This document shows, piece by piece, positions 3,338-39,019 of a stretch of DNA of 51,299 nucleotides (positions are counted from its first letter, which is position 1; every line of letters begins with the position of its first letter). The position numbers were made by a program, and so were the translations under genes. The stretch is from Clostridiales bacterium (GTDB lineage Bacteria > Bacillota > Clostridia > Christensenellales > Aristaeellaceae). The notes under the pieces are model-generated. The model had not been told where the DNA came from. It worked only from the letters and a program-made list of their open reading frames with translations, and ran no database searches. The DNA is taken from contig SVGU01000009.1 in NCBI GenBank assembly GCA_015056155.1, forward strand, positions 1-51,299, written 5' to 3'.

Positions 3338-4497
3338 GCATGTGGCTGCGGGGCTTCACGGCGGAGGGGCTGAACCTGGAGCGCTTCCTGTCCGGCGCGG
3401 CAGAGGCGGGCATCCGGCTCACGTCCGTCCGGCGGCATGGGGCGCGGCGCATATCCGGCTGTGTGGGGCAGGGGGATTATGCCCGCCTGGCAGCTCTCGC
3501 ACAGCAGGGCGGATGGCAGCTGACGGAGGGCGCGCAGCATGGCCTGGGCAGGCTCCTTCAGCGAATGCGGCAGCGGTGGCTGCTGGCGGCGGCTGTCGTG
3601 CTGGCGTCGTCGGCGGTCTTCGCCGGTACGCAGGTCATGTGGCGCATCGACGTGACCGGCAGCGGCGCATACGAGGCGGATATCCGGCAGGCGCTCCGTG
3701 AGCTCGGCGTCCGGGCGCCGATGCTGCGCCGTCAGGTGGAGCCGGGGAAGCTGCGGGATGCGCTGGAATGGCGGTATCCGCGGATCGCGTGGATCGAGTG
3801 CGGCTGGCGCGGCATGACGCTGGAGGTCCGCGTGGTGGAGGGGCTCCTGCCCGGTGAGGACGGGGCTGCGGAGGGGGCGTGCGCGGTCGTTGCGGCGCGG
3901 GACGGCATCGTCGAGCGCATCGTCACGCGGGCCGGAACGCCGGTGGTCACCCCCGGGCAGCTCGTGCGGAAGGGACAGGTGCTCATCAGCGGGGAGGAGC
4001 GGACGGGCGGCGGCCTGACGCGGGCGGTGGCGGCGAGGGGCAGCGTGTACGCCCGCGTGTGGGACGCTGCCGCTGTGCAGACGCCGCTGTATGAAACGGA
4101 AACGGTCTACACCGGCCGGACGCAAGAGACGTGTCAGATTGTGTGCCCGTGGTTCAGTCTGCTGCCCGATGCGCCGGAAATGTTCGAGCACCGGGACGTC
4201 GCTGTCCGGGAGCTCCCGCTGGGCGGCTTCTTCCTGCCGCTGACGATCAGGACGGAGACGCGCATGGAGGCGCAGTACACATCGCAGCTGCGGAGCCTTG
4301 AGGCGCTGAAGGCGGAAGCGTCCGCTGCGGCCCTGCAAAAGCTCTACGCGATCACGGGCGGCAGGGAATCCGTGGTTGACAATTGGGTGAATTGTAGTAT
4401 TATAGAGGATGAGATACTGTTGTCTGTGGCCTATGGCGAACGCCTGATGGACATTGCACAGCAGGAACGCGACTCCGTCATGGCGGCTGCGGAGTAG
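3334..4497 (+). CDS. yqfD: Sporulation protein YqfD
   Basis: 387 residues. A cytoplasmic N-terminal domain (about 1-85) is followed by one membrane segment (about 87-107, WLLAAAVVLASSAVFAGT). Then comes an extracytoplasmic region starting VMWRIDVTGSG and a cysteine-poor beta-rich C-terminal part with the DGIVERIVTRAGTPVVTPGQ segment typical of YqfD/SpoIV-type stage IV proteins. Family knowledge links it to the mother cell compartment during sporulation. The start overlaps the yqfC stop by four bases. The phoH gene follows after 45 bases. No in-frame interruption is seen. Confidence 0.88.
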   Translation: MSMWLRGFTAEGLNLERFLSGAAEAGIRLTSVRRHGARRISGCVGQGDYARLAALAQQGGWQLTEGAQHGLGRLLQRMRQRWLLAAAVVLASSAVFAGTQVMWRIDVTGSGAYEADIRQALRELGVRAPMLRRQVEPGKLRDALEWRYPRIAWIECGWRGMTLEVRVVEGLLPGEDGAAEGACAVVAARDGIVERIVTRAGTPVVTPGQLVRKGQVLISGEERTGGGLTRAVAARGSVYARVWDAAAVQTPLYETETVYTGRTQETCQIVCPWFSLLPDAPEMFEHRDVAVRELPLGGFFLPLTIRTETRMEAQYTSQLRSLEALKAEASAAALQKLYAITGGRESVVDNWVNCSIIEDEILLSVAYGERLMDIAQQERDSVMAAAE

Positions 4498-4542
4498 GGC
4501 GGGACCCATGGCAGAAGCCGCGAGGAAGGAAGGAACCTGTCT

Positions 4543-5523
<981 letters not shown>

Positions 5524-5588
5524 GAACGCTTCCGCGCACAGATCCTGCGGCAGGGGAGTCTCTGCCGGAAGAAAAGGAGTTGGATTGA

Positions 5589-20486: not shown

Positions 20487-21203
20487 ATGGCGATGTGGAA
20501 TCCGTGGAGAGGTTGCAGAAGGTGCAGCGACGGCTGCCTCTATTGCTATATCCACAAGGGCGACGCAAAGCGTGGAGTTGATACAAGTATCATTGAAAAA
20601 ACAAAGGACTTTGCAAAGCCCACAGAGCGCTTGAAGAATGGCAATTACAAAATGAAACCCGGCATTGTGTATACCTGCTTTTCCACCGATTTTCTGATTG
20701 AAGAGGCGGATGCATGGCGTGCAGAATGCTGGCAGATGATTCAGGAACGCAGGGATTGTACCTTTCTCTTTCTCACCAAGCGCATCGACAGATTTATGGA
20801 CTGCATTCCCGATGACTGGGGTGACGGCTATGAAAACGTGGTCGTTTGCTGTACGGTTGAGAATCAAAGGAATGCAGACAATAAGCTCGCGATTTTTGAA
20901 AAGCTTCCGATCAGACATAAGTGCATAACGGCTCAACCGCTTATCGAAGCCATTGATATGGAAAGATATCTTGACGGTATTGAGCTTGTGGTTGTCGGCG
21001 GTGAGTCGGACACGAATGCAAGACCGCTGGACTACGATTGGGTGCTCGATATCAGAGCGCAGTGCATCAGGAAAAACGTGTCTTTTGAATTCAGACAATG
21101 CGGAACGCATTTTGTCAGGAACGGTAAGCAATACAGGTTGCAGACAAAGGATCTGTGCGCTCAGGCAAGAAAAGCTGATATAGATTTCAAACGCAACAGT
21201 TGA
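20487..21203 (+). CDS. DUF5131 (phage Gp37/Gp68-like) family protein
   Basis: 238 residues. The N-terminus has the family's Trp-Asn-Pro-Trp-x-Gly-Cys start and a Cys cluster (GCRRCSDGCLYCYIHKG). Later come FLTKRIDRF, VVCCTVENQ, ITAQPLIEAI and VVGGESD, all family landmarks. The Cys cluster and fold are radical-SAM-like by published family description, but activity is unproven. The codons are clearly richer in A and T than in neighbouring genes (AAA, AAT, ATT and GAT frequent), which suggests recent acquisition. It carries its own Shine-Dalgarno (GAGGTGAG). No other phage genes are nearby. Confidence 0.85.
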   Translation: MAMWNPWRGCRRCSDGCLYCYIHKGDAKRGVDTSIIEKTKDFAKPTERLKNGNYKMKPGIVYTCFSTDFLIEEADAWRAECWQMIQERRDCTFLFLTKRIDRFMDCIPDDWGDGYENVVVCCTVENQRNADNKLAIFEKLPIRHKCITAQPLIEAIDMERYLDGIELVVVGGESDTNARPLDYDWVLDIRAQCIRKNVSFEFRQCGTHFVRNGKQYRLQTKDLCAQARKADIDFKRNS

Positions 21204-21546: not shown

Positions 21547-24417
21547 TTACTTGCTCCAGACCACCAGCGCGCTGTTGGCGGGGTAGATCTGGGCGGTCTG
21601 GTTGGGATTGCTGCGCTGCGCCATGGCCTTGGCGTAGATGTAGGCCTCGTAGAGGGTGATCTCGCTGTTGCCGTCGCGGTCAGCGTTCAGCTTGCTGATG
21701 ACCGTGTCGGTCGCTGCGTTCCAGCCGCTGCCGTGGCACATGCCGTAGGTGAACAGGCCGAAGTACTTCTCCGCCTTGCCGTCGCCGTTGCTGTCGTAGC
21801 CCATGGAGACGGACTGCTCGGTGGAGTGGGCGGCGGTGATGACGTAGTAGCCGCTGTTGGCGAGGTCGTTTTCGCCGCGGGCGATCTGCATGGGCTCCTC
21901 GGTGAAGACGTCCTCATCAGCCGGGAGGATGTCCTCCACGCTGCGGACCACCGTGCTGTCGTCGCTGGCAAAGATGCTCACGACGGCGCTGTTGAAGGCG
22001 CTCAGCTCTGCGGAGGAGACGCCGTCGCCCGTGCTCTTGCCGATCATCTGACCGGAATGGCAGCTGTCGATGATGACGACCTTCTTGCCGGGCACCTGGT
22101 CGAGGGCCTCCTTCAGGCGGCTGACGGACAGGTAGGTGTGGTACACGCCCACGAGTGCGCCGTGGAAGGAGGTTTCCGGCGTGTTCGCGCCGTGGCCGCT
22201 GAAGTAGAACAGGGAAACGTCATTGCTCTTCGCGTCGGCGAAGGTCGTGCGGATGGCGTTGATCATGCCGCTGTCGGAGAGGTTCAGCTGCGTGTTAATC
22301 TGGTAGGGCGTGCCGGTCATGCGGCTGAGCATGGTCGACATCGCGCGCGCGTCATTGTCACAGCCGGGCAGGTAATTGTCCTCGTTGGGGTAGGTGTTGC
22401 CGATGACCAGCGCGCGGTAGGTGGAGGGCGCTTCCTTGTAGGTGTGTGTGAATTCCTCCGACCAGGGGCCGGTGCTGACGTCGCCGTTGGAGAAGATGCG
22501 GACGGGGCGCACGCGGTAGTAATACGTCGTGCCCAGCTCCGCGTTGCTGTGGAAGCCGCTGGTCGTGCTGACGCGGCCGTTGCCGTTGCCGGCGGGGAGG
22601 GTGCCCTGCGTGCGGCTGATGGACACATCGTAGTGGCTTGCACCGGCGACGGCGGGCCAAGACAGGCGCACGCCCTGACCGGTGATGTCCTCGGCCTTCA
22701 CGTTGCCTGCCTTGGGCAGCCAGACGCCCATGCCGATCTCGCCCTTGAGGGAGAAGCAGCGCCAGCCCTCGGGGGAGCAGAGCTTGTAGGAATAGACGAA
22801 GTAGTAGTACACCTCGCCGGGGATCATGGTGGTGTCGGTGAAGGTGGTGACCGGCTCCTCCAGGACGACGAGCTTCTGATAGTTCGTCACGTCCGGGTCG
22901 GAGAAGGCGCGGCGGTAGATGACATAGCCGCTGGCGCCGGGGATCGCGTCCCAGGTGAGCTTCACGCCGTTCGCCGTCCACTCATAGGTCTGGAAGGAAG
23001 GCGTTTCCATGGGGCTGCCGACCATGGTGACGCGGCTGGAATTGCCGGTGATCACCAGGCCGCTGCTCATCTCGCGCTTGGGGATGACGCGGAAATCGTA
23101 GGTCTCGTCGAAGGAGATGTTGGAGATATCGCAGTAGTCGGTGACCAGATCCGTGCGGACGATGCTCCACTCGTTGGCGTTGTGGATGGACATCATCACG
23201 TCATAGTGGGTCGCGCCGGCAACGGCGTTCCAGGTCAGGCGGATGGTGCTGGTGTCCTTGCCGCGGGGATCGTTGATCTTCACATCGCCCAGGACGATGT
23301 AGGGCAGGGAAGCGGACTGCGGGCTGGCGCTCAGGACGCTGCCGTCTGCGCCAAGCTCCACCGCGCGGACGCGGAAGTAGTACACGATGGTGGGATCGAG
23401 CTCCGTGGTGGTATAGGAAGCGGTGGTGACGGTTGCCAGCACGGAATAATCCGCCTCATGCGCCGCCTTGCAGAGCACCTGATAGCCGTCAGCGTCGTCC
23501 ACGCCGTTCCACGTCAGCGTCATTTTGCCCACGCGGTTGTGGCTCGCGAACAGGCCGGAGGGCGCTTCCAGCGCGCGGTATTCCACGAATTCGCCGGGGC
23601 CGTCCGGTTCTTCCGTTTCCACGTCCGGTTCCGGGATCGGCTCGGCAGTGGGTTCGGGCGCGGCTTCGGTGAAGATATCTTCGCCGGGAGCGGGCTCGTC
23701 CGTCGGTTCAACCACGATGGGTTCCTCGGTCGCGGCAGGCTCCTCGGTCGCAGCAGGCTCCACGGTCACGGCAGGTTCCTCGGTCGCGGCGGGTTCCTCG
23801 GTCGCAGCGGGTTCCTCGGTCGCAGCGGGTGCCTCGGTCGCGATGGGCTCTTCGGTCACGGCGGGGGCCGGCGTGGCGGTCGGAGCGGGTTCATCGTTCA
23901 CCAGACGGATGGCCGTCAGCAGGTGTCCGCTGCAGGTGCGGGCGGACTCGTCGTTCCGGGCCTCGCGGTCATGGGCTTCGGCCTGCTCATCGGTCAGCAT
24001 GCGGACGCGGTCTGCGCTGACCCAGCCCGTCATAAGGGACGAGCCGGTGTTGAGGGTGATGCGGATGGCGCGCTCGTCTTCGGAGCGCTCTGCCGCGAAG
24101 ACAACGCCGCCCTCGGCGGCCTCCTCGTACGCGCCCCAGAGGCCGCTGACCTCATACAGGCGGACGCCTGCGGAGATCCGCGCAAGCCCTGCGACGAAGG
24201 CGGGCGCGCGCAGGTTGCCGGTCTGGGTGAACACTTCGTCGGCGGGTACATCCTCCGCGCCGTCGCCGGGAATGGGCGTGGTCTGGGCGGCGAGCAGCGC
24301 CTCCAGCTTATCCGACAGTGCGTCGGAGGTATCTTCTGCAAAAACAGTCGTCGGGATCGCTGTGAGCAGCATCAGCAGCGCAAGCAGCAGCGATGCGAAG
24401 CGACGGGTCATCCTCAT
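21547..24417 (-). CDS. Secreted multidomain protein: FN3 repeats with C-terminal caspase-like peptidase
   Basis: 956 residues. Signal peptide (1-28, RRFASLLLALLMLLTAIPTT), then a domain of about 120 residues with an SH3-like feel (ISAGVRLYEVSGLWGAYEE). A Glu/Pro/Ala-Thr repeat linker follows (about 180-280). Four FN3-type modules span about 285-680. The C-terminal caspase-fold domain (about 685-956) has catalytic His742 in YFSGHGA and Cys786 in IIDSCHSG. Asp-rich loops in its C-terminal part (DSNGDGKAE, NADRDGNSEITL) look calcium-binding. The start at 24417 lies 8 bases after AAAGGAGG. No wall anchor is visible. Secreted bacterial caspase-like enzymes are known, but targets here are unknown. 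Divergent from the glycan operon. Confidence 0.85.
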   Translation of the reverse strand: MRMTRRFASLLLALLMLLTAIPTTVFAEDTSDALSDKLEALLAAQTTPIPGDGAEDVPADEVFTQTGNLRAPAFVAGLARISAGVRLYEVSGLWGAYEEAAEGGVVFAAERSEDERAIRITLNTGSSLMTGWVSADRVRMLTDEQAEAHDREARNDESARTCSGHLLTAIRLVNDEPAPTATPAPAVTEEPIATEAPAATEEPAATEEPAATEEPAVTVEPAATEEPAATEEPIVVEPTDEPAPGEDIFTEAAPEPTAEPIPEPDVETEEPDGPGEFVEYRALEAPSGLFASHNRVGKMTLTWNGVDDADGYQVLCKAAHEADYSVLATVTTASYTTTELDPTIVYYFRVRAVELGADGSVLSASPQSASLPYIVLGDVKINDPRGKDTSTIRLTWNAVAGATHYDVMMSIHNANEWSIVRTDLVTDYCDISNISFDETYDFRVIPKREMSSGLVITGNSSRVTMVGSPMETPSFQTYEWTANGVKLTWDAIPGASGYVIYRRAFSDPDVTNYQKLVVLEEPVTTFTDTTMIPGEVYYYFVYSYKLCSPEGWRCFSLKGEIGMGVWLPKAGNVKAEDITGQGVRLSWPAVAGASHYDVSISRTQGTLPAGNGNGRVSTTSGFHSNAELGTTYYYRVRPVRIFSNGDVSTGPWSEEFTHTYKEAPSTYRALVIGNTYPNEDNYLPGCDNDARAMSTMLSRMTGTPYQINTQLNLSDSGMINAIRTTFADAKSNDVSLFYFSGHGANTPETSFHGALVGVYHTYLSVSRLKEALDQVPGKKVVIIDSCHSGQMIGKSTGDGVSSAELSAFNSAVVSIFASDDSTVVRSVEDILPADEDVFTEEPMQIARGENDLANSGYYVITAAHSTEQSVSMGYDSNGDGKAEKYFGLFTYGMCHGSGWNAATDTVISKLNADRDGNSEITLYEAYIYAKAMAQRSNPNQTAQIYPANSALVVWSK
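23713..23875 (-). repeat. Short tandem repeats encoding Ala-Thr-Glu-Glu-Pro units
   Basis: Degenerate 18-base repeats in the FN3-caspase gene encode iterated AATEEP-type units that form the linker between the N-terminal domain and the FN3 modules. They are likely prone to length variation. Confidence 0.75.
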
Positions 24418-24467
24418 GGGCATGGCCTCCTTTGTCTCATGGGGCATAAGTATGGAATTCCAATCAT

Positions 24468-24496
24468 ATTATAGGCTTTCGGCAGGGTTTGGTCAA
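24468..24496 (-). promoter_or_regulatory. Promoter of the FN3-caspase gene
   Basis: Minus strand TTGACC (24496-24491), a 17-base spacer, and TATAAT (24473-24468), 51 bases before the start codon. Confidence 0.85.
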
Positions 24497-24562
24497 GTGC
24501 GGGGCGGAGAAAGTTACATTCGTAACAATACGCGGAATCCGCCACTTCCGGGCCGGATGGAC

Positions 24563-24591
24563 TTGCCATCTTCCGCCGGATATGGTACAAT
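24563..24591 (+). promoter_or_regulatory. Promoter of the glycan assembly and export operon
   Basis: TTGCCA (24563-24568), a 17-base spacer, and TACAAT (24586-24591). It is divergent from the caspase promoter, with about 66 bases between the two -35 elements. Confidence 0.78.
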
Positions 24592-24643
24592 ACAACATGG
24601 ATGCTCATGCGTCCATGAAGCTGCGGAAAGGAGTGAAGCGGGC

Positions 24644-27600
24644 GTGGCCGTCAGGCTTTCGGTCGTCGTGCCGGTATATGGCACGGAAAAATACCTGCGG
24701 AAATGCCTCGATTCACTGGCAGAGCAGACCCTGCGGGAGGCGGAGTTCATCCTGGTGGATGACTGCACGCCCGACCATGCAGGGAAGATCATGGCGGAAT
24801 ATGCCGCGCGGGACAGCCGGTTCCGCATCCTCCGCCATGAACAGAACCGCGGTCTGTTTGTGTCCCGCGTGACCGGGGCAAAGGCCGCGCAGGGCGACTA
24901 CATCGCCTTTCTGGACAGCGATGACTTCGTTTCCGTCGACTTCTATCGTTCTGCGGTGAAATGCGCCGATGATTCGGACGCGGACGTTGTGATGGGCGAT
25001 ACTGTATGGGTGCTGGAGGACGGGCGGCGCATCGTGCGCCCGATGCACGACTGCTGCGTGCCGGAGGGACGCCTCGGCCAGGAGGAGCTGCGCCGGGCGT
25101 TCTATGGTCAGGAGCTGTCCTGCTACAGCTGGCATACGATCTGGAACAAGGTGTACAGGCGTTCGCTGTTTGAGCGCTGCCTGCCTGTGTTTGAACGCCT
25201 GACCGGGCACATCGTCATGACGGAGGACGTGGCGTTCTCCTGCGTGCTGCTGTACGAGGCGCGCTCCATGGTCCGGCGCCGCGGGGACGGCGTGTTCTAC
25301 TGCATGCACGCCGCGTCCTCGACGAATGCGGCCTATGCGGACCAGGCGCGGTTCTTCCGCAATTATGAGAACATCGTCGCCGTCTTTGAATTCGTGGAGG
25401 CGTTCCTGAAGGAAAAGAACGATCAGGCATGCCTGAACCACCTGATGAACGCGAGGCGCTGGTATTGCCGGATGTGGACGGAGGCCCGCCAGCGGTGCGC
25501 CTCTGACCCGGCGGCGAAGGAAAGGGCGGATGCGCTCACGGCGCGTCTTGCGCCGGGCTTTGACGCGGACAAACCGCAGGACAATGGGGAGATCTGGTGG
25601 TACGACCGCTACACCCTCCCGTGGAACGACGGGCTGGAAAAGATCAAGCGGGCCATCGCCGGGCTGGACGGCTGCACGGCGGATACGATCTCCTTTGATG
25701 TGTTCGATACCCTGATCCTCCGGCCCTTCCGGCAGCCGAGCGATCTGAAATGCATGCTGGAGGACAAGTGGCAGAAGGAGAACCGCCGCTGCCTGCTGTC
25801 CTTCGCGGACGCCCGTGCAGAGGCGGAGACCTCCGCCCGCGTGTGGGCGAGGGGCCGGAAGGAAGACATCGACCTGTACGATGTGTACAACGCGCTGGAG
25901 ATGACCTGCGGGACGTCGCCGGACTGCGCGGAGGCGATGCGCTTCTATGAAATGGAGGCGGAGATCGAATACTGCCAGCCCCGGCATTCGGGCGTGCAGC
26001 TGTTTCAGCTGGCCCGGGCGATGGGCAGGCGAGTCGTCCTGACCTCGGACATGTATCTGGACAGCGGAACGATCACCTCCATGCTCAACAAGTGCGGCGT
26101 GGACGGTTGGGATGCGTTCCTCCTGTCCAGCGAGCAGAACGCGCTGAAGTGGAACGGCGGGTTGTATCGCTGCCTGCTGGCGGAATTGAAGGCCGCGCCG
26201 GAAACCATCCTGCACATCGGCGACAACTGGGAGAACGACTGCATCCAGCCCCGGAAGCTGGGCTTGCGGGCCATGCATCATCCCCGGGCGATGGACGTGA
26301 TGACCGACCGCCGCCGGACGATGCTGGGAGCGCTGGGGCTGCAGACGGCTTCCGCCTTTGCGGGGGAGCGGTCGCTGCAATCGTCGCTGTCCTTCCGCTG
26401 CATGCAGGCGCTGACGGCGAACCGCTTCTTCGACAACGGCTTCGCGGCCAGCGCGCAGGAGATGAATTTCGCTTCCTCGCCTGCGCTGCTGGGATATTAC
26501 GCGGTCGGCGGGCATGTGCTGTCCGTTGCGCAGTGGCTGATCCGCCGCGCAAAGGCGGACGGCGTGCGCAAGCTCGTGTTCCTTGCGCGGGACGGCTGGC
26601 TCGTCAAAGAGGCGGTCGATCTCCTGCTGACGGAGGCGGACGGCATTGCGACGGATTATCAGCCTGCCTCCCGGCGGTGCCTGCTGCCGGCGCTGGCGGT
26701 CAACCCGACGGATTTCTACGCCCTGCCGGTCAATACGCCGGCCTATTCGGTGAAAAAGCTGCTGGAGCTGCTGGACTTCTGCACGGCGGAAATGCCGCAG
26801 GAGGAGCTGCGCAGGCAGGTGGAGGAAGCCGGATTTGCGTGGGAGGAAAATTTCCCCGGGCGCTACCGGTATCATGAATTCATCCGCTGGTATCTCGACC
26901 ATCTCTACGACGGCCGGAGGCACCAGCAGGCATACAACGCCCTGCATGCGTATTATGAGCCGGTGCTGACGCCGGACGCCGCCTGCTTCGACATGGGCTA
27001 CAGCGGACGGCTGCAGGCGGCGCTCAACCAGCTGGCCTGCAGGAGCGTGCCGGTCTACTTCATCCACGCGGATGACCGGAACTGTCCGCGCCTGGAACGG
27101 GCGTACGACTTCGAGGCACGCTGCTTCTACGGCATGAAGCCCGGCATGTCCGGCGCATTCCGGGAATTTCTGCTGTCCTCGGACGAGCCGCCCTGCATCG
27201 GCTTCCGGCGCACGGAAGAAGGCGTCGTTCCCGTGTACGGCAGGAGCGAGTACAACTCCGCCGCGCGATTCTTCATCCGGCAGGTGCAGCGCAATGCCCT
27301 GCAGTTCGTCCGGGACTACACCGCGCGATTCCGGGGCACGGTCGCCGAGCGGCTGAATCCGTACGTGTGCTCCATGCCTTTTGAAAGCGCGCTGCGGTAC
27401 CTGGGCGAACCGGACCTGGCGATGCTTGCGGACATCCGCTTTGAGGATACCGTCTTTGCCGGGCAGGACGACCTGGATCTCGCGTCCCTTGTGAGAGCGC
27501 AGTCTGCTGCGGCGAACGCAGACGGGGTGCAGGCATTGCAGGGGCTGCCCTGGTTCGGGGAAGCGCAGCGTCTGACGCCCGGGCGTGTCTGCGGGCTGCT

Positions 27601-27736
27601 CCTGCACGACCGCGGGACGCTCAAGGCGGAGGCGAAGCGACGCCTCGAGGGGCATCCGCGTCTGACAAAGGTCTGCCGCGCGGGCTGGCAGGTGCTCAAG
27701 CGCTGCCGCCGGCTCATCAGAGGGGGGGCGGACTGA
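24644..27736 (+). CDS. Glycosyltransferase family 2 fused to HAD-like hydrolase and a C-terminal domain
   Basis: 1030 residues. A GT-A glycosyltransferase domain (about 1-250) has SVVVPVYGTEKYLRKCLDSL, the LVDDCTPD segment and the DSDD metal motif. A HAD-like domain (about 345-560) has SFDVFDTLILRPF (Asp352, Asp355), LTSDMYLD and HIGDNWENDC. The remainder (about 600-1030) includes KLVFLARDGWLVKEA and DMGYSGRLQAAL and matches the COG5610-type architecture. It probably adds sugars to a surface glycan in the cytoplasm; the HAD role is unclear. The GTG start at 24644 is chosen from AAAGGAG (24627-24633). The open frame extends far upstream but antisense to the caspase gene. It is first gene of a four-gene operon. 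Confidence 0.88.
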   Translation: MAVRLSVVVPVYGTEKYLRKCLDSLAEQTLREAEFILVDDCTPDHAGKIMAEYAARDSRFRILRHEQNRGLFVSRVTGAKAAQGDYIAFLDSDDFVSVDFYRSAVKCADDSDADVVMGDTVWVLEDGRRIVRPMHDCCVPEGRLGQEELRRAFYGQELSCYSWHTIWNKVYRRSLFERCLPVFERLTGHIVMTEDVAFSCVLLYEARSMVRRRGDGVFYCMHAASSTNAAYADQARFFRNYENIVAVFEFVEAFLKEKNDQACLNHLMNARRWYCRMWTEARQRCASDPAAKERADALTARLAPGFDADKPQDNGEIWWYDRYTLPWNDGLEKIKRAIAGLDGCTADTISFDVFDTLILRPFRQPSDLKCMLEDKWQKENRRCLLSFADARAEAETSARVWARGRKEDIDLYDVYNALEMTCGTSPDCAEAMRFYEMEAEIEYCQPRHSGVQLFQLARAMGRRVVLTSDMYLDSGTITSMLNKCGVDGWDAFLLSSEQNALKWNGGLYRCLLAELKAAPETILHIGDNWENDCIQPRKLGLRAMHHPRAMDVMTDRRRTMLGALGLQTASAFAGERSLQSSLSFRCMQALTANRFFDNGFAASAQEMNFASSPALLGYYAVGGHVLSVAQWLIRRAKADGVRKLVFLARDGWLVKEAVDLLLTEADGIATDYQPASRRCLLPALAVNPTDFYALPVNTPAYSVKKLLELLDFCTAEMPQEELRRQVEEAGFAWEENFPGRYRYHEFIRWYLDHLYDGRRHQQAYNALHAYYEPVLTPDAACFDMGYSGRLQAALNQLACRSVPVYFIHADDRNCPRLERAYDFEARCFYGMKPGMSGAFREFLLSSDEPPCIGFRRTEEGVVPVYGRSEYNSAARFFIRQVQRNALQFVRDYTARFRGTVAERLNPYVCSMPFESALRYLGEPDLAMLADIRFEDTVFAGQDDLDLASLVRAQSAAANADGVQALQGLPWFGEAQRLTPGRVCGLLLHDRGTLKAEAKRRLEGHPRLTKVCRAGWQVLKRCRRLIRGGAD

Positions 27737-27737
27737 C

Positions 27738-28775
27738 ATGGCGATCGGCCTCTTCTGGAACGACCGGGTGCACTTTGACCAGCACGACTGGAAGATGAAG
27801 TTCTTCTGGGTCGGGAACAATACGGGCAACCTGGTGTTCATCCGGGCGCTGAAGAACATCTTCGACCCGGTCATCTTCCCCCTGTGGGATGTGGATTCCG
27901 GCGCCTTCCGGGACGACCCGGCGGTGACGCACTACATCACCACCGAGCTGATCTGGCTGACGGAAAACACCGTGTACCCCCACGTGTGGAAGATGCTCTC
28001 CGGCATCGGCGACAAACCGCTGGTGCCCATCAGCGTCGGCGTGCACAGCCGCACGGATTCCACGAAGATCAACCTGCACCCCGATACGGTGAAGCTCCTG
28101 CGGACGATCTCTGAGCGGGCGATCCTCGGCGTGCGCGGGGAATATTCCGCGGCGGTGCTGGAGCGTCTGGGCATCCTGAACCTGAAGATCATCGGCTGCC
28201 CGAGCCTGTATTACGGCATGGACGATGCCTTCCGCCTGGAGAAGAAGCCCTTCCATGAGGGGATGAAGACGGCGGTGAACTTCCGCACCTTCTACGGCAG
28301 CCTCCGCCCGGCGGAATGCGAATTCCTGACCTATGCGGCCAACCGCCGCATGCCCTTCGCCGAGCAGACGCAGCAGGAGCTGTCGCTGGAAAACTGCCAG
28401 AACAACCTGCCGCAGTATGAGTACTTCAGCGCCTGGCTGAAGGAGCAGAAGCGGGTCTTCTTCGAGATCGACCCGTGGGTGGAGTGGCTGAAGCAGTTCG
28501 ACTTTTCCATGGGCAGCCGCTTCCACGGCAATGTCCTGGCCGTCATGAACGGCATTCCGGCGCTGACGATGGTGATCGACGGCCGGATGCAGGAGATGAC
28601 GCGGCTGTTCCGCCTGCCGACGATGGACGCGAAGGACTTTTCCATGGACAAGCCGCTCTCTTACTACTACGATCTGGCGGACTTCACGGAGTTCAACGCC
28701 GTATATCCCAAGCGCCTGGCGGCCTTCCGCGACTTCCTGCGCAGAAACGGACTGACGGAGGCGATGAAGGCATGA
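27738..28775 (+). CDS. Polysaccharide pyruvyl transferase family protein
   Basis: 345 residues. The N-terminal half has WVGNNTGNLVFIRAL and the middle has VPISVGVHSRTD and LGVRGEYSAAVLERLGI. The C-terminal half has the family hallmark SMGSRFHGNVLAVMNGIPAL. These enzymes (CsaB/WcaK/ExoV group) transfer pyruvyl or related groups to surface polysaccharide sugars, although members of this fold include glycosyltransferase-like relatives. It starts one base after the stop of the glycosyltransferase fusion, and its stop overlaps the permease start by four bases (ATGA). It is therefore translated as part of the same unit. Confidence 0.88.
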   Translation: MAIGLFWNDRVHFDQHDWKMKFFWVGNNTGNLVFIRALKNIFDPVIFPLWDVDSGAFRDDPAVTHYITTELIWLTENTVYPHVWKMLSGIGDKPLVPISVGVHSRTDSTKINLHPDTVKLLRTISERAILGVRGEYSAAVLERLGILNLKIIGCPSLYYGMDDAFRLEKKPFHEGMKTAVNFRTFYGSLRPAECEFLTYAANRRMPFAEQTQQELSLENCQNNLPQYEYFSAWLKEQKRVFFEIDPWVEWLKQFDFSMGSRFHGNVLAVMNGIPALTMVIDGRMQEMTRLFRLPTMDAKDFSMDKPLSYYYDLADFTEFNAVYPKRLAAFRDFLRRNGLTEAMKA

Positions 28776-29572
28776 AGAACATGTTCATCGTCCTGCGGGA
28801 GATCGCCGTGCACATGCCGCGGACGATCCGTCTGGCGCTGTACGAAAACCGCTCCCGCCGCAGCCAGCTGCTGCTGGGGCGCGTGTGGGACTTCCTCAAC
28901 CCGCTGTTCCAGATCCTGATCTACTGGTTCGTCTTCTCCGTCGGTCTGAAGACTGAAACGAGGAACGGCTTTCCCTACGCGATCTGGCTCATGTGCGGCA
29001 TGATGCCCTGGCTGGCGATGAACGCCTCCTCCGTCAATGCCGCCAACGCGATCCAGGCCAACGCGCACGTCCTGAAAAACGTGAGCATACCGGTGACGAT
29101 CATGCCCGTGAAGGCGATCGTCCGGGCGTACTACGAGCATCTGTGGACGATGGGCATCCTGATCACGACGCTCCTGTGCTGCCGGATCTGGCCGACATGG
29201 CACTGGCTGGAGCTGGCGTACTACCTCGCCGCCGCGTGGATGTTCCTCATCGGCTTCACCCTCATCTCCAGCAGCCTCAGCGCCGTGTACCGGGACTTCT
29301 TTGAATTCCTCAACCCCGTCATGCGGCTCCTGTTCTACATTTCCAGCGTCGTCTGGCCGCTGGAGAGCCTGCCGGAGGATCTGCAGTTCATCATGCAGCT
29401 CAACCCCTTCGCCTACATCGTCGAAGGGTACCGCAAATGCCTGCTGTACGGCGAGAGCTTTCTGGCAAACTGGCAGCAGGGGCTGTACTTCTGGGGCCTG
29501 ACGCTGGCGCTCCTGCTGCTGGGCAGCATGCTGCACATGCGGCTGCGCAAGCGCTTCATCGACCAGCTGTGA
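28772..29572 (+). CDS. ABC-2 type polysaccharide export permease
   Basis: 266 residues with about six membrane segments. The first pair starts near WDFLNPLFQILIYWFVFSVG. The C-terminal half has the family motif FLNPVMRLLFYISSVVWPLE and the NPFAYIVEGYRK segment, both typical of TagG/KpsM/Wzm permeases. It moves an undecaprenyl-linked glycan across the membrane. The partner ATPase follows after 25 bases. The ATG at 28772 overlaps the preceding stop. Confidence 0.92.
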   Translation: MKNMFIVLREIAVHMPRTIRLALYENRSRRSQLLLGRVWDFLNPLFQILIYWFVFSVGLKTETRNGFPYAIWLMCGMMPWLAMNASSVNAANAIQANAHVLKNVSIPVTIMPVKAIVRAYYEHLWTMGILITTLLCCRIWPTWHWLELAYYLAAAWMFLIGFTLISSSLSAVYRDFFEFLNPVMRLLFYISSVVWPLESLPEDLQFIMQLNPFAYIVEGYRKCLLYGESFLANWQQGLYFWGLTLALLLLGSMLHMRLRKRFIDQL

Positions 29573-29597
29573 TGCGCAAAAGGAAGGAGGCGGCGGC

Positions 29598-30452
29598 ATG
29601 GCGCAGGATGTGATCGTCCGGCTGAAGGACCTGACGAAGACCTACGATCTCTATACGGGCGAAGGCGACCGCATCAGGGCGCTGCTGGGCCTGCCCGCCA
29701 AGGGGCTGCATTACAGCGCGCTGGACGGCGTGACGCAGGATTTCCTCCGCGGCGAGATCGTCGGGCTGGCCGGGCTCAACGGCTCGGGCAAATCCACGCT
29801 GGCGAAGATCATCGCCGGCATCACCCATCCGACCAGCGGCTCCTGCCAGGTGCGGGGCACGGTCAATATGCTGGCGGCCAACGTCGGCATGAACGATCAG
29901 CTGACCGGACGGGAAAACATTTACTATAAATGCATGCTCATGGGGCTGAACCGGCGGCAGATCGAGGCGGTCGAGGAGGAGATCATCGACTTTGCCGAGG
30001 TCGGCGTGTACATCGACCAGCCCCTGCGGACCTATTCCAGCGGCATGCGCTCGCGGCTCGGCTTTGCCATTTCCGTGCATGTCGATCCGGAGATCCTCAT
30101 CGTGGACGAGGCGCTTTCGGTGGGCGATGCAGCTTTTTCCGAAAAATGTCTTGCCCGGATGCAGGAATTTCGTGATTCAGGTAAAACTATATTCTTTGTG
30201 ACACATGCGCCTTGGCAGATGCTGCATTTCTGCGACCGGGTCATGTGGCTGCACAAGGGCCGCGTCATCGGTTTTGACGACGCGGATGTGATGGTCCCGT
30301 CCTACGTGGAATTCACGCGGGAATGGACCAGGCTCGACCAGGCGGCGCGCGACGCGCTGGAGCCGGTGTATGCGGACTACCGCGACGCCTTCCAGCGCCA
30401 GCAGCGCGAGGCATGGGCGAAAAAGGCGGCTGAACGCGCCGCCGCGCAATAA
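29598..30452 (+). CDS. ABC transporter ATPase for polysaccharide/teichoic acid export (TagH/Wzt type)
   Basis: 284 residues. Walker A is GLNGSGKST, the signature YSSGMRSRLGFAI is the SGM variant usual in this subfamily, Walker B is ILIVDEAL, and the switch is FVTHAP. The N-terminus has the long YxxYTGEGDR insertion before the Walker A domain seen in TagH-like exporters. The tail after about 235 is short and charged (QRQQREAWAKKAAER), so there is no glycan-binding C-terminal domain of the Wzt type. With the permease it forms a complete exporter. AAGGAGG precedes the ATG. Confidence 0.93.
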   Translation: MAQDVIVRLKDLTKTYDLYTGEGDRIRALLGLPAKGLHYSALDGVTQDFLRGEIVGLAGLNGSGKSTLAKIIAGITHPTSGSCQVRGTVNMLAANVGMNDQLTGRENIYYKCMLMGLNRRQIEAVEEEIIDFAEVGVYIDQPLRTYSSGMRSRLGFAISVHVDPEILIVDEALSVGDAAFSEKCLARMQEFRDSGKTIFFVTHAPWQMLHFCDRVMWLHKGRVIGFDDADVMVPSYVEFTREWTRLDQAARDALEPVYADYRDAFQRQQREAWAKKAAERAAAQ

Positions 30453-30519
30453 TCCAGGCTCATGCCGGCGAAGGCGGAAAAGTTTCCAGTACAGGGAATA
30501 GACTGGCAATCTGATTCGT

Positions 30520-30546
30520 TGTATTCGTCGGAGAAGCAATATACTT
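30520..30546 (+). promoter_or_regulatory. Weak candidate promoter of the FN3/SH3 protein
   Basis: TTGTAT (30520-30525), a 15-base spacer, and TATACT (30541-30546). The spacer is suboptimal. Read-through from the export operon is also possible, since no terminator is seen between 30453 and 30571. Confidence 0.35.
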
Positions 30547-30571
30547 TCCGCAAAAAGGAGTGACACTGACC

Positions 30572-33337
30572 ATGAAACGACTGGTATCCCTGCTGCTGGT
30601 GATCTGCATGCTGGTGCCCTGCCTGGCGAACGCCGAGCAGTTTGGCGACAGCGTAATCATCGACGGTGAAGACGTTTTTGCTGCCGTTCCTGAAGAGATC
30701 GTTCAGGAGCCGGTGGAGGAAGACGTCGTCCTCCCTGAAGCTGACGACATGCTGATGATGCTGCCCACCGACGGCGTGGACGGCCCTGCCCCCTACCGTG
30801 AGCTGGTCCTGCTCCAGCCCACCGACCTGATGGGTACCGCCCTGAGCGTGAACACCATCCGTCTGTCCTGGGGCCCCGTTGCCTTCGCGACGCAGTACGA
30901 CGTGTACCGCAAGCTGATCGGCGAAACGGAATACACCTACGTGAGCTCCACGCCCGCTGAGCAGCTGTACTTCGAGGATTCCGCCGTGACTCCCGGTACC
31001 GTTGCTTACTACCGCGTGCAGGCCGTGAACGTGTCCTACAACGGCAGCACCCCTGTGGTGACCTACAGCCCCCAGTCCAACACGCTGCCCTTCATCACTC
31101 TGGAAGCGCCCAAGCTGAACGACCCCCGCGGTCTGGATGCTGACTCCCTGCGCCTGACCTGGACCACCGTTGCCGGCGCCACGACCTATGAGGTCGAGAT
31201 GGCGACCAGCGCTGCCGGTCCCTTCACCAACGTCCGCAAGGAGCTGACCGGCGCCCACTGCAACGTGGACAACCTGTCCACCGACAAGGGCTACTACTTC
31301 CGCATGCGTGCCGTGCGTACCTTCTCCAGCGGCGAGAAGTTCTTCTCCGAGTACTCTGAGCCCATCAAGTGCGGCAAGCCCATGGATCGTCCCACGCTGG
31401 CCGTGACCGCTGACGGCAACAACGGCATCCTGACCTGGTCCGCCTGCGCTGGCGCGACCGGCTATGTCATCTACCGCAAGGCGGGCACCAGCGGCTCCTA
31501 CAGCAAGCTGAACATCGTCGGCAACGTGACCAGCTATGTCGACGCTGGCCTGACCCCCGGCGAGGTGTACTACTACTTCGTGTACGCCATGAGCCCCGTG
31601 GGCGCCTACAACTGCTTCTCCCTGTCCTCTGACACCCGCTACTTCACCGTCGTGGAGGGCGCTGTGCTGTGTGCTGTCCAGAATACCGGCCTGCAGGAGC
31701 AGACCATCGACTGGACCGGCCCCGACGGCAAGCCCACCTGTGCGGGCGCGAACAAGTACCTCGTGTACTCCTCCACCACCATTGACGGCCTGTACACCCT
31801 GATCGGCGAGACCACCGAAACCAAGTTCGTGGCCACCGGCCTGGAAGAGGGCTGCACCTACTACTACAAGGTCCGCGCTGTGCGTACCTTCTCCAACGGC
31901 GACATCTCCTACGGACCCTGGTCCAACGTGATGGCCATGCCTGAGGCCGGCGCCCTGAAGATCTCCAGCGTCAGCGCGACCAACGCGACCCTGGGCATGG
32001 ACATCGCCGGCGGCTACGTGGGCGACGTGTTCAACTGGACCACCGTCGTTTCCGGCGGCAGCGGCGCCTACTCCTTCAAGTACACCCTGGTCAGCCTGAA
32101 CGGCTCCGGCTCCCTGCTGCTGCAGGACTTCAGCGAGGGCTACATTGCCATTCCTGAAGGCCAGACCAGCCTGGCGGCCAACTTCGCCCTGACCCTGACC
32201 GACGAGATGTGCGACCTGATCACCAACCAGCGCTATGCGATGCAGATCGAGATCAAGGACTCCCTGGGTGCTGTGACCGCGCAGTACGCCTGCGAGGATA
32301 CCCTGAACGAGATGAACTTCTGCGCGCCCAAGCCCACCACGCAGATGATCAACGTCACCCTGCGCGCCGGCGAAACGCTGGATCTGATGCACGGTGTGTG
32401 CCCCGAGGCCGGCGACGCCATCCTGATGGACGTCTCCAACCCCACCGGCGCCATCTCCCTGTCCGGTAACACCGTGACCGCGCTGTCCAACGGCTACGCC
32501 ACCATCCTGGTGACTCCTGCCCGTTACAAGAATGATATCCTGATCGCTTACCACATCACCGTGGGCTACGCGACCCTGGCCATCAACAACATCACCCCCA
32601 GCGCGACCACTCTGAACAACTACGATACCCTGTCCTGGGATATCAACTACACCGGCGGCCGTCCCAACTACACCATGAACATCAAGGTGTACTGCGGCAC
32701 GACCCTCGTGGCCAACAACAACAAGACCTACTCCAAGACCGGTCTGGTCTCCGTCAACTACCAGCCCACCAAGCCCGGCGATTACACGCTGGAGGTCGTC
32801 ATCAACTCTGCTGACGGTCAGACCGTCACCAAGCGTTCCGCGGTGACCAAGGTCGTCAACTACACGCCCGTGACCGTCCTGCCCAGCACCACCAGCGCCA
32901 CCGCCGGCACCAACATCACCTGGGTCACTGCTTACAGTGGCAACAACACTGTCGTCCGCCGTGACTACACCCTGTTCCGTGACGGCGTTGTGGTCGCCTC
33001 CTCCGTGGGCACCAACAACTTCTCCTTCAGCTACACGCCCACCGTGGCGGGCAGCTACGTGCTGCAGGTTATCGTCTATGAGGCGACCGGCAGCCGCATC
33101 GAAGTGACCTCCTCCACCGTGACCGTGACCGCGGGCGTCGCCAGCGGCTACCGCGTCGGCAAGGTCACCGGCGTCCGTGTTGCGCTGCGCAAGGGCAACA
33201 GCACCTCCGCCGGCATCTACTTCCGCATTGACAAGGGCGAACTGGTCAAGGTCATCAAGGAAGAGAACGGCTGGTACTGGGTCGAGTACAAGGGCACCTA
33301 CGGCTGGATGATGTCTCAGTACGTCGCCCTGCAGTGA
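30572..33337 (+). CDS. Secreted FN3/Ig-like protein with C-terminal SH3b domain
   Basis: 921 residues. A signal peptide (1-24, MKRLVSLLLVICMLVPCLA) and an acidic spacer precede four FN3-type modules (about 80-460; LSWGPVAFATQYDVYRK, then LTWTTVAGATTYEVEM). Further Ig-like beta modules follow (about 460-855; INNITPSATTLNNYDTLSW and similar). The C-terminal bacterial SH3 domain (about 860-921) has VALRKGNSTSAG and WYWVEYKGTYGWM. FN3 modules closely resemble those in the FN3-caspase protein (shared LNDPRG and TWxxVAGATxYxV motifs). The SH3b domain may bind cell wall. AAGGAG lies 12 bases before the ATG. Strong terminator downstream. Function unknown. Confidence 0.85.
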   Translation: MKRLVSLLLVICMLVPCLANAEQFGDSVIIDGEDVFAAVPEEIVQEPVEEDVVLPEADDMLMMLPTDGVDGPAPYRELVLLQPTDLMGTALSVNTIRLSWGPVAFATQYDVYRKLIGETEYTYVSSTPAEQLYFEDSAVTPGTVAYYRVQAVNVSYNGSTPVVTYSPQSNTLPFITLEAPKLNDPRGLDADSLRLTWTTVAGATTYEVEMATSAAGPFTNVRKELTGAHCNVDNLSTDKGYYFRMRAVRTFSSGEKFFSEYSEPIKCGKPMDRPTLAVTADGNNGILTWSACAGATGYVIYRKAGTSGSYSKLNIVGNVTSYVDAGLTPGEVYYYFVYAMSPVGAYNCFSLSSDTRYFTVVEGAVLCAVQNTGLQEQTIDWTGPDGKPTCAGANKYLVYSSTTIDGLYTLIGETTETKFVATGLEEGCTYYYKVRAVRTFSNGDISYGPWSNVMAMPEAGALKISSVSATNATLGMDIAGGYVGDVFNWTTVVSGGSGAYSFKYTLVSLNGSGSLLLQDFSEGYIAIPEGQTSLAANFALTLTDEMCDLITNQRYAMQIEIKDSLGAVTAQYACEDTLNEMNFCAPKPTTQMINVTLRAGETLDLMHGVCPEAGDAILMDVSNPTGAISLSGNTVTALSNGYATILVTPARYKNDILIAYHITVGYATLAINNITPSATTLNNYDTLSWDINYTGGRPNYTMNIKVYCGTTLVANNNKTYSKTGLVSVNYQPTKPGDYTLEVVINSADGQTVTKRSAVTKVVNYTPVTVLPSTTSATAGTNITWVTAYSGNNTVVRRDYTLFRDGVVVASSVGTNNFSFSYTPTVAGSYVLQVIVYEATGSRIEVTSSTVTVTAGVASGYRVGKVTGVRVALRKGNSTSAGIYFRIDKGELVKVIKEENGWYWVEYKGTYGWMMSQYVALQ

Positions 33338-37216: not shown

Positions 37217-39019
37217 ATGAAGGTCATCTACAACGACGGTCACGCTGCCGAGTGCGCTCCGGAGGAGGAGCTGCATATCCTGCGGCATACGGCGGCGCAC
37301 ATCCTGGCGCAGGCCGTGCAGAACCTCTACCCCCAGGCGCATTTCGCCTACGGCCCCGCCACCGAGACGGGCTTCTACTATGACATTGATCTGGGCGATG
37401 TGAAGCTCACCGAGGATGATCTGCCCGCGATCGAAAAGGAAATGCAGGCCATCGTCAAGAAGAACCTGCCCATCAAGCCCTTCGCGCTGAGCCGCGACGA
37501 GGCCATCAAGCTGATGCAGGAGCGCGGCGAAAGCTACAAGGTCGAGCACATCGCCGACCTGGCGGAGGACGTGACGCTCACCTTCTTCCAGCAGGGCGAC
37601 TATATCGACATGTGCGTCGGTCCGCACCTGTGCTACACCAAGGCGCTCAAGGCCTTCAAGCTGACGGCCATCTCCGGCGCCTACTGGAAGAACGACAAGA
37701 ACAACAAGATGCTCACCCGCATCCGCGGCACGGCCTTCGCCACCAAGGATGAGCTGGAGGCCTACATCAAGCAGCAGGAAGAAGCCCGCAAGCGCGACCA
37801 CAACAAGCTCGGCCGCGAGCTGGAGTACTTCACCACCGTCGATGCCATCGGCCAGGGCCTGCCGGTCCTGCTGCCCAAGGGCGCCCGCGTCATCCAGCTG
37901 CTGCAGCGCTGGGTCGAGGACGAGGAGCAGAAGCGCGGCTATCTGCTGACCAAGACGCCTCTGTTCGCCAAGTCCGACCTGTACAAGATCTCCGGCCACT
38001 GGGATCACTACCTGGACGGTATGTTCGTCCTGGGCGATCCCACGGACGAGACGAAGGAATGCTTCGCCCTGCGTCCCATGACCTGCCCCTTCCAGTATCA
38101 GGTGTACCTGAACCGCGCCCGCTCCTACCGCGATCTGCCGATGCGTCTGGGCGAGACGTCCACGCTGTTCCGCAACGAGGATTCCGGCGAAATGCACGGT
38201 CTGATCCGCGTGCGTCAGTTCACCATCTCCGAGGGCCATCTGGTGCTGCGTCCCGAGCAGCTGGAGGAGGAGTTCCGCGGCTGTCTGGAGCTGGCCAAGC
38301 ACATGCTGGGCACCGTCGGCATGCTGGAGAACTGCTCCTTCCGCTTCAGCCAGTGGGATCCTGCCCGCGCCGGCATCAAGTACGAGGGCACGGCGGAGCA
38401 GTGGGAGGAAGCCCAGCGCATCATGGGCGAGATCCTGGACAACCTCGGCGTCGAGTATGAGATCGGCATCGACGAGGCTGCCTTCTACGGCCCCAAGCTG
38501 GACATCCAGTACAAGAACGTCTTCGGCAAGGAAGACACCATCGTCACCATCCAGATCGACATGCTCCTGGCGCAGAAGTTTGGCATGGAGTACACCGACA
38601 CGGACGGCAAGAAGAAGATCCCCTACATCATCCACCGCACGTCCCTGGGCTGCTACGAGCGCACGCTGGCCTACCTGATCGAGCGCTATGCCGGCGCGCT
38701 GCCCATGTGGATGGCGCCCGAGCAGGTGCGCATCCTGACCATCACCGAGCGCAGCGACGACTGGGCCTATGAGCTCAAGGCGAAGCTGGAGGCCGAGGGC
38801 ATCCGCGCGGAGGTCGATCCCCGCAACGAGAAGATCGGCTTCAAGATCCGCGAGGCGCAGCTGGAGAAGGTGCCCTACATGGTGGTGCTGGGCGACAAGG
38901 AAGTCGAGGACAAGGTCGTTGCCCTGCGCGACCGCAAGGGCGGCAACCACGGCGTGATGAGCGTGGAGGAAATGATGGCCCGCTTCCGCAAGGAAATCGA
39001 CGAAAAGCTGCACGACTGA
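37217..39019 (+). CDS. thrS: Threonyl-tRNA synthetase
   Basis: 600 residues. The N-terminus is MKVIYNDGHAAECAPEEE and passes at once into the editing-domain start ILRHTAAHILAQAV. A full TGS domain of about 60 residues is therefore missing. Editing domain (SAD), class II catalytic core and C-terminal anticodon-binding domain are all present. The core has RPMTCPFQYQVY (zinc Cys), GLIRVRQFTISEGH (motif 2 region), LDIQYKN and IHRTSLGCYER. It charges tRNA-Thr. The start at 37217 follows AAGGGAGG; no upstream in-frame start restores a TGS domain. Controlled by the T-box. Confidence 0.96.
   Translation: MKVIYNDGHAAECAPEEELHILRHTAAHILAQAVQNLYPQAHFAYGPATETGFYYDIDLGDVKLTEDDLPAIEKEMQAIVKKNLPIKPFALSRDEAIKLMQERGESYKVEHIADLAEDVTLTFFQQGDYIDMCVGPHLCYTKALKAFKLTAISGAYWKNDKNNKMLTRIRGTAFATKDELEAYIKQQEEARKRDHNKLGRELEYFTTVDAIGQGLPVLLPKGARVIQLLQRWVEDEEQKRGYLLTKTPLFAKSDLYKISGHWDHYLDGMFVLGDPTDETKECFALRPMTCPFQYQVYLNRARSYRDLPMRLGETSTLFRNEDSGEMHGLIRVRQFTISEGHLVLRPEQLEEEFRGCLELAKHMLGTVGMLENCSFRFSQWDPARAGIKYEGTAEQWEEAQRIMGEILDNLGVEYEIGIDEAAFYGPKLDIQYKNVFGKEDTIVTIQIDMLLAQKFGMEYTDTDGKKKIPYIIHRTSLGCYERTLAYLIERYAGALPMWMAPEQVRILTITERSDDWAYELKAKLEAEGIRAEVDPRNEKIGFKIREAQLEKVPYMVVLGDKEVEDKVVALRDRKGGNHGVMSVEEMMARFRKEIDEKLHD

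Follow-up and report, generated by a model that had tools for sequence, protein, structure and literature searches.

A candidate ribofuranose-glycan operon between two FN3 exoproteins, one of them a domain-swapped caspase, in a Clostridiales bacterium

Described ribosyl polymerases and the clostridial locus

The capsule polymerase Bcs3 of Haemophilus influenzae type b is presented, in the available part of PMC10299916, as one polypeptide in which a chain-extending transferase (CroT), a HAD phosphatase (CrpP), a phosphoribosyl pyrophosphate (PRPP)-dependent ribose-5-phosphate transferase (CriT) and an SH3b domain follow one another (structures 8a0c and 8a0m). Its SH3b domain binds two repeat units of the ribose-polymer product, and disruption of the domain abolishes activity. 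Bipartite enzymes that join a HAD phosphatase (PRP) to a PRPP-using transferase (gPRT) include the Thermobacillus ribofuranosyltransferase 7shg and ORF5 and ORF7 of the ATP-binding cassette (ABC)-dependent Klebsiella O4 and O7 glycan loci (excerpts of PMC11231755 and PMC11127046). Characterised PRP-gPRT enzymes form beta-ribofuranose (Ribf) linkages according to the latter excerpt, and the former also treats these modules. Here we describe a locus on a 51,299-nucleotide stretch of a Clostridiales genome (the window: contig C33 of an assembly of 2.9 Mb and 73.9% completeness) in which a probable GT2-PRP-gPRT enzyme, a pyruvyltransferase and an ABC exporter are encoded between two secreted FN3 proteins, a caspase-like one and one with an SH3b domain. 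With modest confidence, we favour the explanation that a ribose-glycan operon is linked with both exoproteins.

An earlier note on this DNA had proposed a four-gene operon between two FN3 exoproteins, one protease-like and one with an SH3b domain. Scoring of the window's open reading frames (ORFs) with Pfam and NCBIfam profiles confirmed this layout, with all six genes present.

21547..24447 (likely start 24417), minus strand: caspase-like secreted exoprotein (PF00656 E 5.5e-21, PF00041 E 1.6e-11)
24468..24496, minus strand: promoter-like TTGACC-17-TATAAT of the caspase gene, kept in 5/5 genomes that carry the block (island genomes)
24513..24527, strand not assigned: GTTACATTCGTAACA, between the two divergent promoter-like sites; one exact site in the window
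24563..24591, plus strand: promoter-like TTGCCA-17-TACAAT of the operon, kept in five genomes
24644..27736, plus strand: enzyme of three modules (GT2, HAD and C-terminal domain); GTG start after AAAGGAG
27738..28775, plus strand: polysaccharide pyruvyl transferase (PS_pyruv_trans, PF04230 E 3.8e-16)
28772..29572, plus strand: ABC-2 exporter permease (ABC2_membrane E 8.4e-17)
29598..30452, plus strand: ABC exporter ATPase, TagH-like, 284 aa (ABC_tran E 9.4e-20)
30572..33337 (alternative GTG start 30560), plus strand: FN3-SH3b secreted exoprotein (fn3 E 6.4e-13, SH3_3 E 1.5e-10)

The operon is divergent from the caspase gene on its left and co-directional with the SH3b exoprotein gene on its right. 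A block of about 9 kb, which encodes both enzymes, both subunits of the exporter and the FN3-SH3b protein, lies between the caspase gene and a DUF362 gene. The pyruvyltransferase and permease genes overlap (ATGA); for the first enzyme the GTG at 24644 was preferred to a longer ORF from 23525, which reaches too far upstream.

The enzyme pair, the exporter and the predicted glycan

The first operon product had been read as a GT/HAD fusion. Both modules are indeed present, and that description was incomplete: GT2 (residues 1-~300) is followed by a HAD phosphatase like CrpP/PRP (~345-550) and by a PRPP-type transferase like CriT/gPRT (~555-960), which by Foldseek and profile comparison makes it a probable ribofuranosyl enzyme. 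Pfam recognised GT2 plus a weak HAD match. An AlphaFold2 model (pLDDT 87.3, pTM 0.85) searched against the PDB with Foldseek retrieved Bcs3 first (8a0m/8a0c, E 6.6e-22; whole length, ~1000 columns), then 7shg (E 1.1e-18; ~650 columns at a root mean square deviation (rmsd) of 14) and then GT2 enzymes. Profile searches of the PDB gave E 5.4e-41 for Bcs3 and 1.9e-29 for 7shg and, with the gPRT part alone, 1.4e-9 for 7shg and 2.3e-9 for Bcs3. Fold and module order agree with those of PRP-gPRT (CrpP-CriT) enzymes.

The HAD and gPRT motifs are retained. In an alignment of 19 homologs, the HAD residues D352 (nucleophile Asp), S468 (motif II Ser), K502 (III Lys) and D527 (IV Asp) are invariant (19/19), as are R649-D650, R677, D783-x-G-Y-S-G and S845 of the gPRT module; the RD and SR motifs of the PRPP site are recognised, with S676 found in 13/19 and RE in place of RD in 7shg. 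By profile alignment, D352 and K502 correspond to Bcs3 D386 and K548, and R649-D650 and R677 to Bcs3 R679-D680 and R708. These Bcs3 positions are assigned to its PRPP and phosphate sites; R679-D680 and R708 line docked PRPP, and a change of D680 to alanine lowers activity (PMC10299916, in part). D783 aligns with the Asp of VDVGWKG in 7shg.

Could the HAD module instead be an ordinary or inactive phosphatase and the C-terminal domain a non-ribosyl one, the product being a conventional teichoic-acid-like glycan? The overall superposition on Bcs3 is poor (TM about 0.4, rmsd 27-31; 15-16% identity in the structural alignment), from which we conclude that the domain arrangement differs, and the equivalent of Bcs3 E818, which is the second acidic residue at its PRPP site, was not placed, the profile alignment ending before it. 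These points weigh on the side of that alternative. They are set against the invariance of the HAD motifs, RD, R677 and DxGYSG in all 19 homologs and the match in fold and PRP-gPRT order to two solved ribosyl enzymes, and we consider a non-ribosyl product improbable. The enzyme is probably a GT2-PRP-gPRT ribofuranosyl enzyme. Since it is a single GT2-PRP-gPRT polypeptide adjoining an ABC exporter, it would most simply make, and is probably a polymerase of, a disaccharide-repeat chain.

The likeness to Bcs3 extends to the system, which includes ABC export and an SH3b domain somewhere within it. Unlike Bcs3, whose first module is the TagF-like GT-B transferase CroT, the window enzyme begins with GT2; no SH3b domain was found in it, that domain being on a secreted partner instead; a pyruvyltransferase gene comes next; and the host belongs to the Clostridia. 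The enzyme differs from the bipartite PRP-gPRT proteins in its fusion to GT2 and its pairing with a pyruvyltransferase.

The pyruvyltransferase scored 60.2 bits against PF04230 (cut-off 25.3). Its R261-F-H263, invariant in the five orthologs, was placed by eye on R306-x-H308 of CsaB (PMC10435577, in part). CsaB-type pyruvylation creates the ligand of SLH domains in other Gram-positives (PMC6030368, in the part at hand), and a pyruvyltransferase together with a TagGH-like exporter would also fit a pyruvylated wall polymer that anchors SLH-domain S-layer proteins. However, the protein reached 23.1 bits against the CsaB equivalog TIGR03609 (cut-off 213.1), which led us to reject CsaB membership. 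The SLH partners of CsaB are nearly absent here: PF00395 gave a single match in 1/18 genomes of the genus (G007, an island genome), none in the window's own genome, and no SLH domain was recognised by Pfam in either exoprotein. SLH anchoring was rejected as very improbable.

The best NCBIfam matches of the ATPase are to TagH of the TagGH teichoic acid exporter. Several results argue against too precise a reading of the pathway: the ATPase falls below both TagH equivalog cut-offs (281.8 vs 538; 252.4 vs 320) and the permease below that of KpsM, the pyruvyltransferase profile had no PDB match at E 0.1, and the operon is without initiating transferase, ligase or sugar-nucleotide genes. No domain was found C-terminal to the ATPase domain in the 284-aa protein. 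In two other loci, ABC ATPase ORFs (L109:4635-6587 and L121:5699-7456) start signal-peptide-like and have ~370-440 residues ahead of the ATPase domain, which suggests that these exporter ATPases carry an extracellular part.

In the pathway we propose, the gPRT module would transfer beta-ribofuranosyl-5-phosphate from PRPP, the PRP (HAD) module would remove the 5-phosphate, GT2 would add a second sugar from a nucleoside diphosphate-sugar, the pyruvyltransferase would add a pyruvate ketal from phosphoenolpyruvate and the TagGH-like transporter would export the chain. Given a GT2-PRP-gPRT enzyme, the probable product is a glycan that contains beta-ribofuranose and is pyruvylated, and we regard an ABC-exported glycan with Ribf and pyruvate as quite likely. 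The origin of ribofuranose is reportedly the subject of a 2022 paper in Nature Chemical Biology.

Two FN3 exoproteins: distribution, domain exchange and probable linkage

Four proteins of the locus were searched in 150 related genomes, the own genome included, with up to five candidates per genome being scored. The pyruvyltransferase was found in 5/150 (the G011 copy is cut by a contig end). The FN3-SH3b protein was present in the same five (in G010 divided into two pieces, each on its own contig), and G060 gave a partial FN3 match. Caspase matches of some kind occurred in 37/150, mostly to the catalytic domain, and full-length ones only in the five pyruvyltransferase genomes. Gene order is conserved in these island genomes (the own genome, G001, G007, G010 and G011), the block being split by contig ends in G010 and G011. 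Beyond the SH3b gene, G010 has different DNA (L018:5000-15860; no DUF362 or uridine-kinase (UDK) match), so the block has been kept together despite different surroundings. The earlier note would have taken exoprotein genes lacking the operon in most relatives as evidence against a link; what we found is co-occurrence in the same 5 of 150 genomes, which are possibly one clade. The first enzyme was recovered at E 1e-30 from 13/150 genomes, namely the own, the four other island genomes (64-72%), G008 (46%) and a further seven (30-41%), in four of which the match covers the GT2 part only. Farther afield, 1/398 phylum genomes had the pyruvyltransferase (E 1e-10) and 1/391 class genomes the FN3-SH3b protein (E 1e-20), in each case the own genome.

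The enzyme pair has a broader distribution. Among 27 pyruvyltransferase loci collected from named genomes, 23 were distant (26-45%), and in 15 of these 23 Clostridia loci the gene immediately upstream of the pyruvyltransferase encodes a full-length GT2-PRP-gPRT protein. Only the C-terminal part is present in L104, L106, L107 and L123 offer too little upstream sequence, and L116, L118, L121 and L122 have no full-length gene of this kind upstream. Both ABC subunits were detectable in 6/23. No exoprotein match was obtained by tblastn (E 1e-6, 45 bits) in the fetched flanks of any of the 23, seven of which are shorter than 12 kb. Because the pair occurs in distant Clostridia with no exoprotein match in the flanks fetched, GT2-PRP-gPRT plus pyruvyltransferase constitutes a module of broader range, and only in this lineage was a link to the exoproteins seen. 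No paper on such a locus was among the matches listed from an open-access collection. In the congener G008, the genes after another GT2-PRP-gPRT gene (45%) encode DUF6270 and a ferredoxin/FrhB-pyruvyltransferase fusion (L144:10392-17098).

Operon-less versions of the locus were found when it was viewed in 17/18 genus genomes (in G003 only in short loci). In G002, G016 and G017, MutY, an orotate phosphoribosyltransferase (OPRT)-like gene, a short caspase, DUF362 and UDK share one contig each with no operon or SH3b-protein match there, and G005 has the same arrangement over two contigs. From the caspase start to the DUF362 end is about 410 bp in G002, 155 bp in G016 and 153 bp in G017, as against 9.0 kb in the window. 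In the eight other genus genomes, the DNA fetched at MutY, reaching 6-7 kb downstream, gave no caspase match. In the short sister caspases, LRR_5 and PKD domains precede the caspase domain (Pfam; LRR_5 of G005 under the cut-off), and this front of ~300 aa is homologous (38-51%) among four sister and four paralogous genus caspases, whereas two island caspases compared with it gave no match at E 1e-3. The LRR-PKD-caspase form is likely ancestral, since its front half is common to sister and paralogous proteins. A tree of the caspase domain, with the paralogs as outgroup, separates the island and sister groups with support 97 each. By these alignments, the caspases of the operon lineage have, where the ancestral form had LRR-PKD, an FN3 block that is homologous to the one in the SH3b protein. 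Among the sisters, the G017 caspase (L059:2588-4288) has His changed to Met and Cys to Ala, and that of G016 (L058:6457-8151) has His changed to Lys; both are likely pseudo-proteases.

The window caspase consists of a signal peptide, a domain of ~70 aa, an acidic linker rich in Pro, Thr and Glu, the FN3 block (residues ~295-665) and peptidase C14; by eye its best start is the ATG at 24417, 8 nt downstream of AAAGGAGG. The C14 domain scored 75.8 bits (cut-off 21.4) with the His/Cys dyad in SGHG and DSCHSG, and the dyad is kept in 5/5 island caspases and 2/4 sister caspases in the alignment. The best PDB sequence match was plant metacaspase-4 (6w8s, E 1.3e-11). The protein resembles C14 caspases and metacaspases in this domain, this dyad and two acidic EF-hand-like loops seen by eye near the C-terminus, and differs from C14 metacaspases in being secreted, in the FN3 block in front, in an acid-rich insert of about 24-30 extra residues ahead of the small subunit in the island caspases, and in its link to a glycan operon. 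A conserved Arg/Lys precedes the small subunit in the alignment; Pfam gave a single sub-threshold EF-hand match among the caspases, in G017. Read by the EF-hand and metacaspase rules, the loops and the Arg/Lys site suggest a Ca2+-dependent enzyme with Arg/Lys specificity. An SH3-like fold for the N-terminal ~70 aa seemed plausible on inspection but was rejected (no Pfam match; hhalign probability 0.8%), and the AlphaFold2 model of the caspase (pLDDT 46) was not used; both points count against the linked reading.

The other exoprotein has an FN3 block, a central region without a recognised fold and a C-terminal SH3b domain (33173-33334). Each FN3 block comprises about four repeats by eye, of which Pfam scores one stretch. 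The modules had been called related, and they are: the two blocks align collinearly over ~410 aa at 39% identity (E 5e-61), and among the candidates scored in the 150 genomes the best non-orthologous match of each block is the other. The signal peptides, also described as similar, are both Sec-type by eye; this likeness is generic and carries little weight. FN3 (PF00041, E <= 0.001) was found in four ORFs of the assembly, one on C81, one on C101 and two on C33, the latter bracketing the operon; in this search the copy on C101 and that of the SH3b protein score below Pfam's own cut-off. The exoprotein may bind this glycan, for which the SH3b domain of Bcs3 with its ribofuranose polymer is a precedent, although SH3b domains often bind peptidoglycan. 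In our proposal it would be made together with the glycan and bind the wall or the glycan, and the FN3-caspase would act at the same surface site as a Ca2+-dependent processing protease. The homology of the FN3 blocks indicates that the caspase is probably targeted to the surface site of the SH3b protein.

Alternatively, the operon and the SH3b protein may form one unit and the caspase be merely a neighbour at the insertion site, its change of front half an unrelated target switch. Its gene and promoter-like site are older than the operon at the locus, its transcription is divergent, and 2/4 sister caspases lost a catalytic residue, so the gene is perhaps just labile. However, the closest non-orthologous match of its FN3 block, as given above, belongs to the block's own SH3b protein, FN3 is sparse in the genus (never more than 5 matches in a genome, and in 7/18 none) and the dyad is intact in all island caspases. 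We judge the unlinked caspase possible though unlikely.

The linked reading has to contend with several further observations. A five-marker tree groups the five island genomes apart (support 70; 48-72 inside), so they are possibly one clade and a single event may underlie the co-occurrence. The enzymes do occur without the exoproteins, in the 15 distant loci and in G008, whose first-enzyme homologue (45-46%) sits at another locus. The catalytic part of the caspase predates the operon at the locus, and the SH3b gene carries its own conserved 5' region, which makes its co-transcription with the operon less certain. The earlier idea of one surface system holds up in the block linked in five genomes, the homologous FN3 blocks and the ABC-exported, probably pyruvylated glycan, and is weakened by the possible single clade and the exoprotein-free enzyme pair. 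On this evidence a functional link of both exoproteins to the glycan, with the targeting it implies, seems slightly favoured.

Secreted peptidases of the caspase fold have been implicated in surface-protein processing (PMC3482391, in the part available). The linkers contain a recurrent pattern: in 20 linker segments, 20/42 Phe come after a stretch of four residues of which two or more are acidic (shuffle mean 10.2; reached by 4/5000), and 14 of these are also followed by Pro within five positions (shuffle mean 4.3; reached by 0/5000), for a motif defined post hoc, five non-independent orthologs and segments cut by hand-made rules, the N-terminal segment of G000 retaining part of the signal peptide. 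Counting against the motif, the G010 SH3b linker contains no Phe. In a control with a different, stricter pattern, 5/76 secreted-like ORFs (35,384 aa) matched, with a home-made signal-peptide filter that passes spurious ORFs. As a lead only, the acidic-hydrophobic-Phe-(x)-Pro motif in the caspase insert and both exoproteins' linkers may be a docking or processing signal. The G010 caspase linker (L098:1749-4817) also has a long run of PTAE-type repeats, with shorter versions in other orthologs. Cleavage of the SH3b protein, or of the caspase itself, by the caspase at the shared surface site is a tentative and rather doubtful suggestion. Equally doubtful is the fuller picture, in which a resident LRR-PKD caspase was re-targeted by domain exchange and gained a new acid-rich insert, in a glycan polymerase/exporter system with its own glycan-reading protein and extracellular-processing caspase.

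Promoter-like sites, surroundings and meaning of the locus

The two divergent promoter-like sites are of sigma-70-like type, separated by 66 bp, and both are kept in the five island genomes (the operon site reads TTGATA in G007). The caspase site is also seen by eye in the four sister genomes (-35 TTGATT in G002), so the block adjoins an older promoter. Beside it, the TGTAAC half of GTTACATTCGTAACA is present by eye in 8/9 genomes, with or without the operon (TGTAAG in G010); 45/100 shuffles yield at least one GTTACATTCGTAACA site with up to 3 mismatches. A regulator shared by the caspase gene and the operon is possible from this arrangement.

To the left of the locus are MutY, the OPRT-like gene and a DUF5131 gene, and to the right DUF362, the UDK-like gene and GH18. 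The DUF5131 gene (20487-21203; PF07505 E 2e-39, with a weak radical-SAM mobile-pair match) stands between the OPRT-like gene and the caspase. A threonyl-tRNA synthetase at 37217-39019 has genus copies that are either close (94% in G007, 83.5% in G001) or distant (about 50-55%); G001 has both types in tandem (L013:2048-3844 and 3878-5638), and G013 a 72% fragment. A mobile origin of the block was rejected: no confirmed pyruvyltransferase relative was found in viral_contigs or phage records and no SH3b-protein relative in plasmids, and the GC content (0.61-0.65) and third-position GC (GC3, 0.80-0.93) are similar to the surroundings.

The locus is best described as a putative ABC-dependent ribofuranose glycan locus with two FN3 exoproteins, one of them a domain-swapped caspase. 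To our knowledge, substrate hints are rare for secreted bacterial caspases, and this locus offers two candidates, namely the SH3b exoprotein and the linker of the caspase itself. The ribose assignment would make the recurring 'GT/HAD' loci of Clostridia testable as ribofuranosyl polymerases, with the operon-less sister genomes as a natural control.

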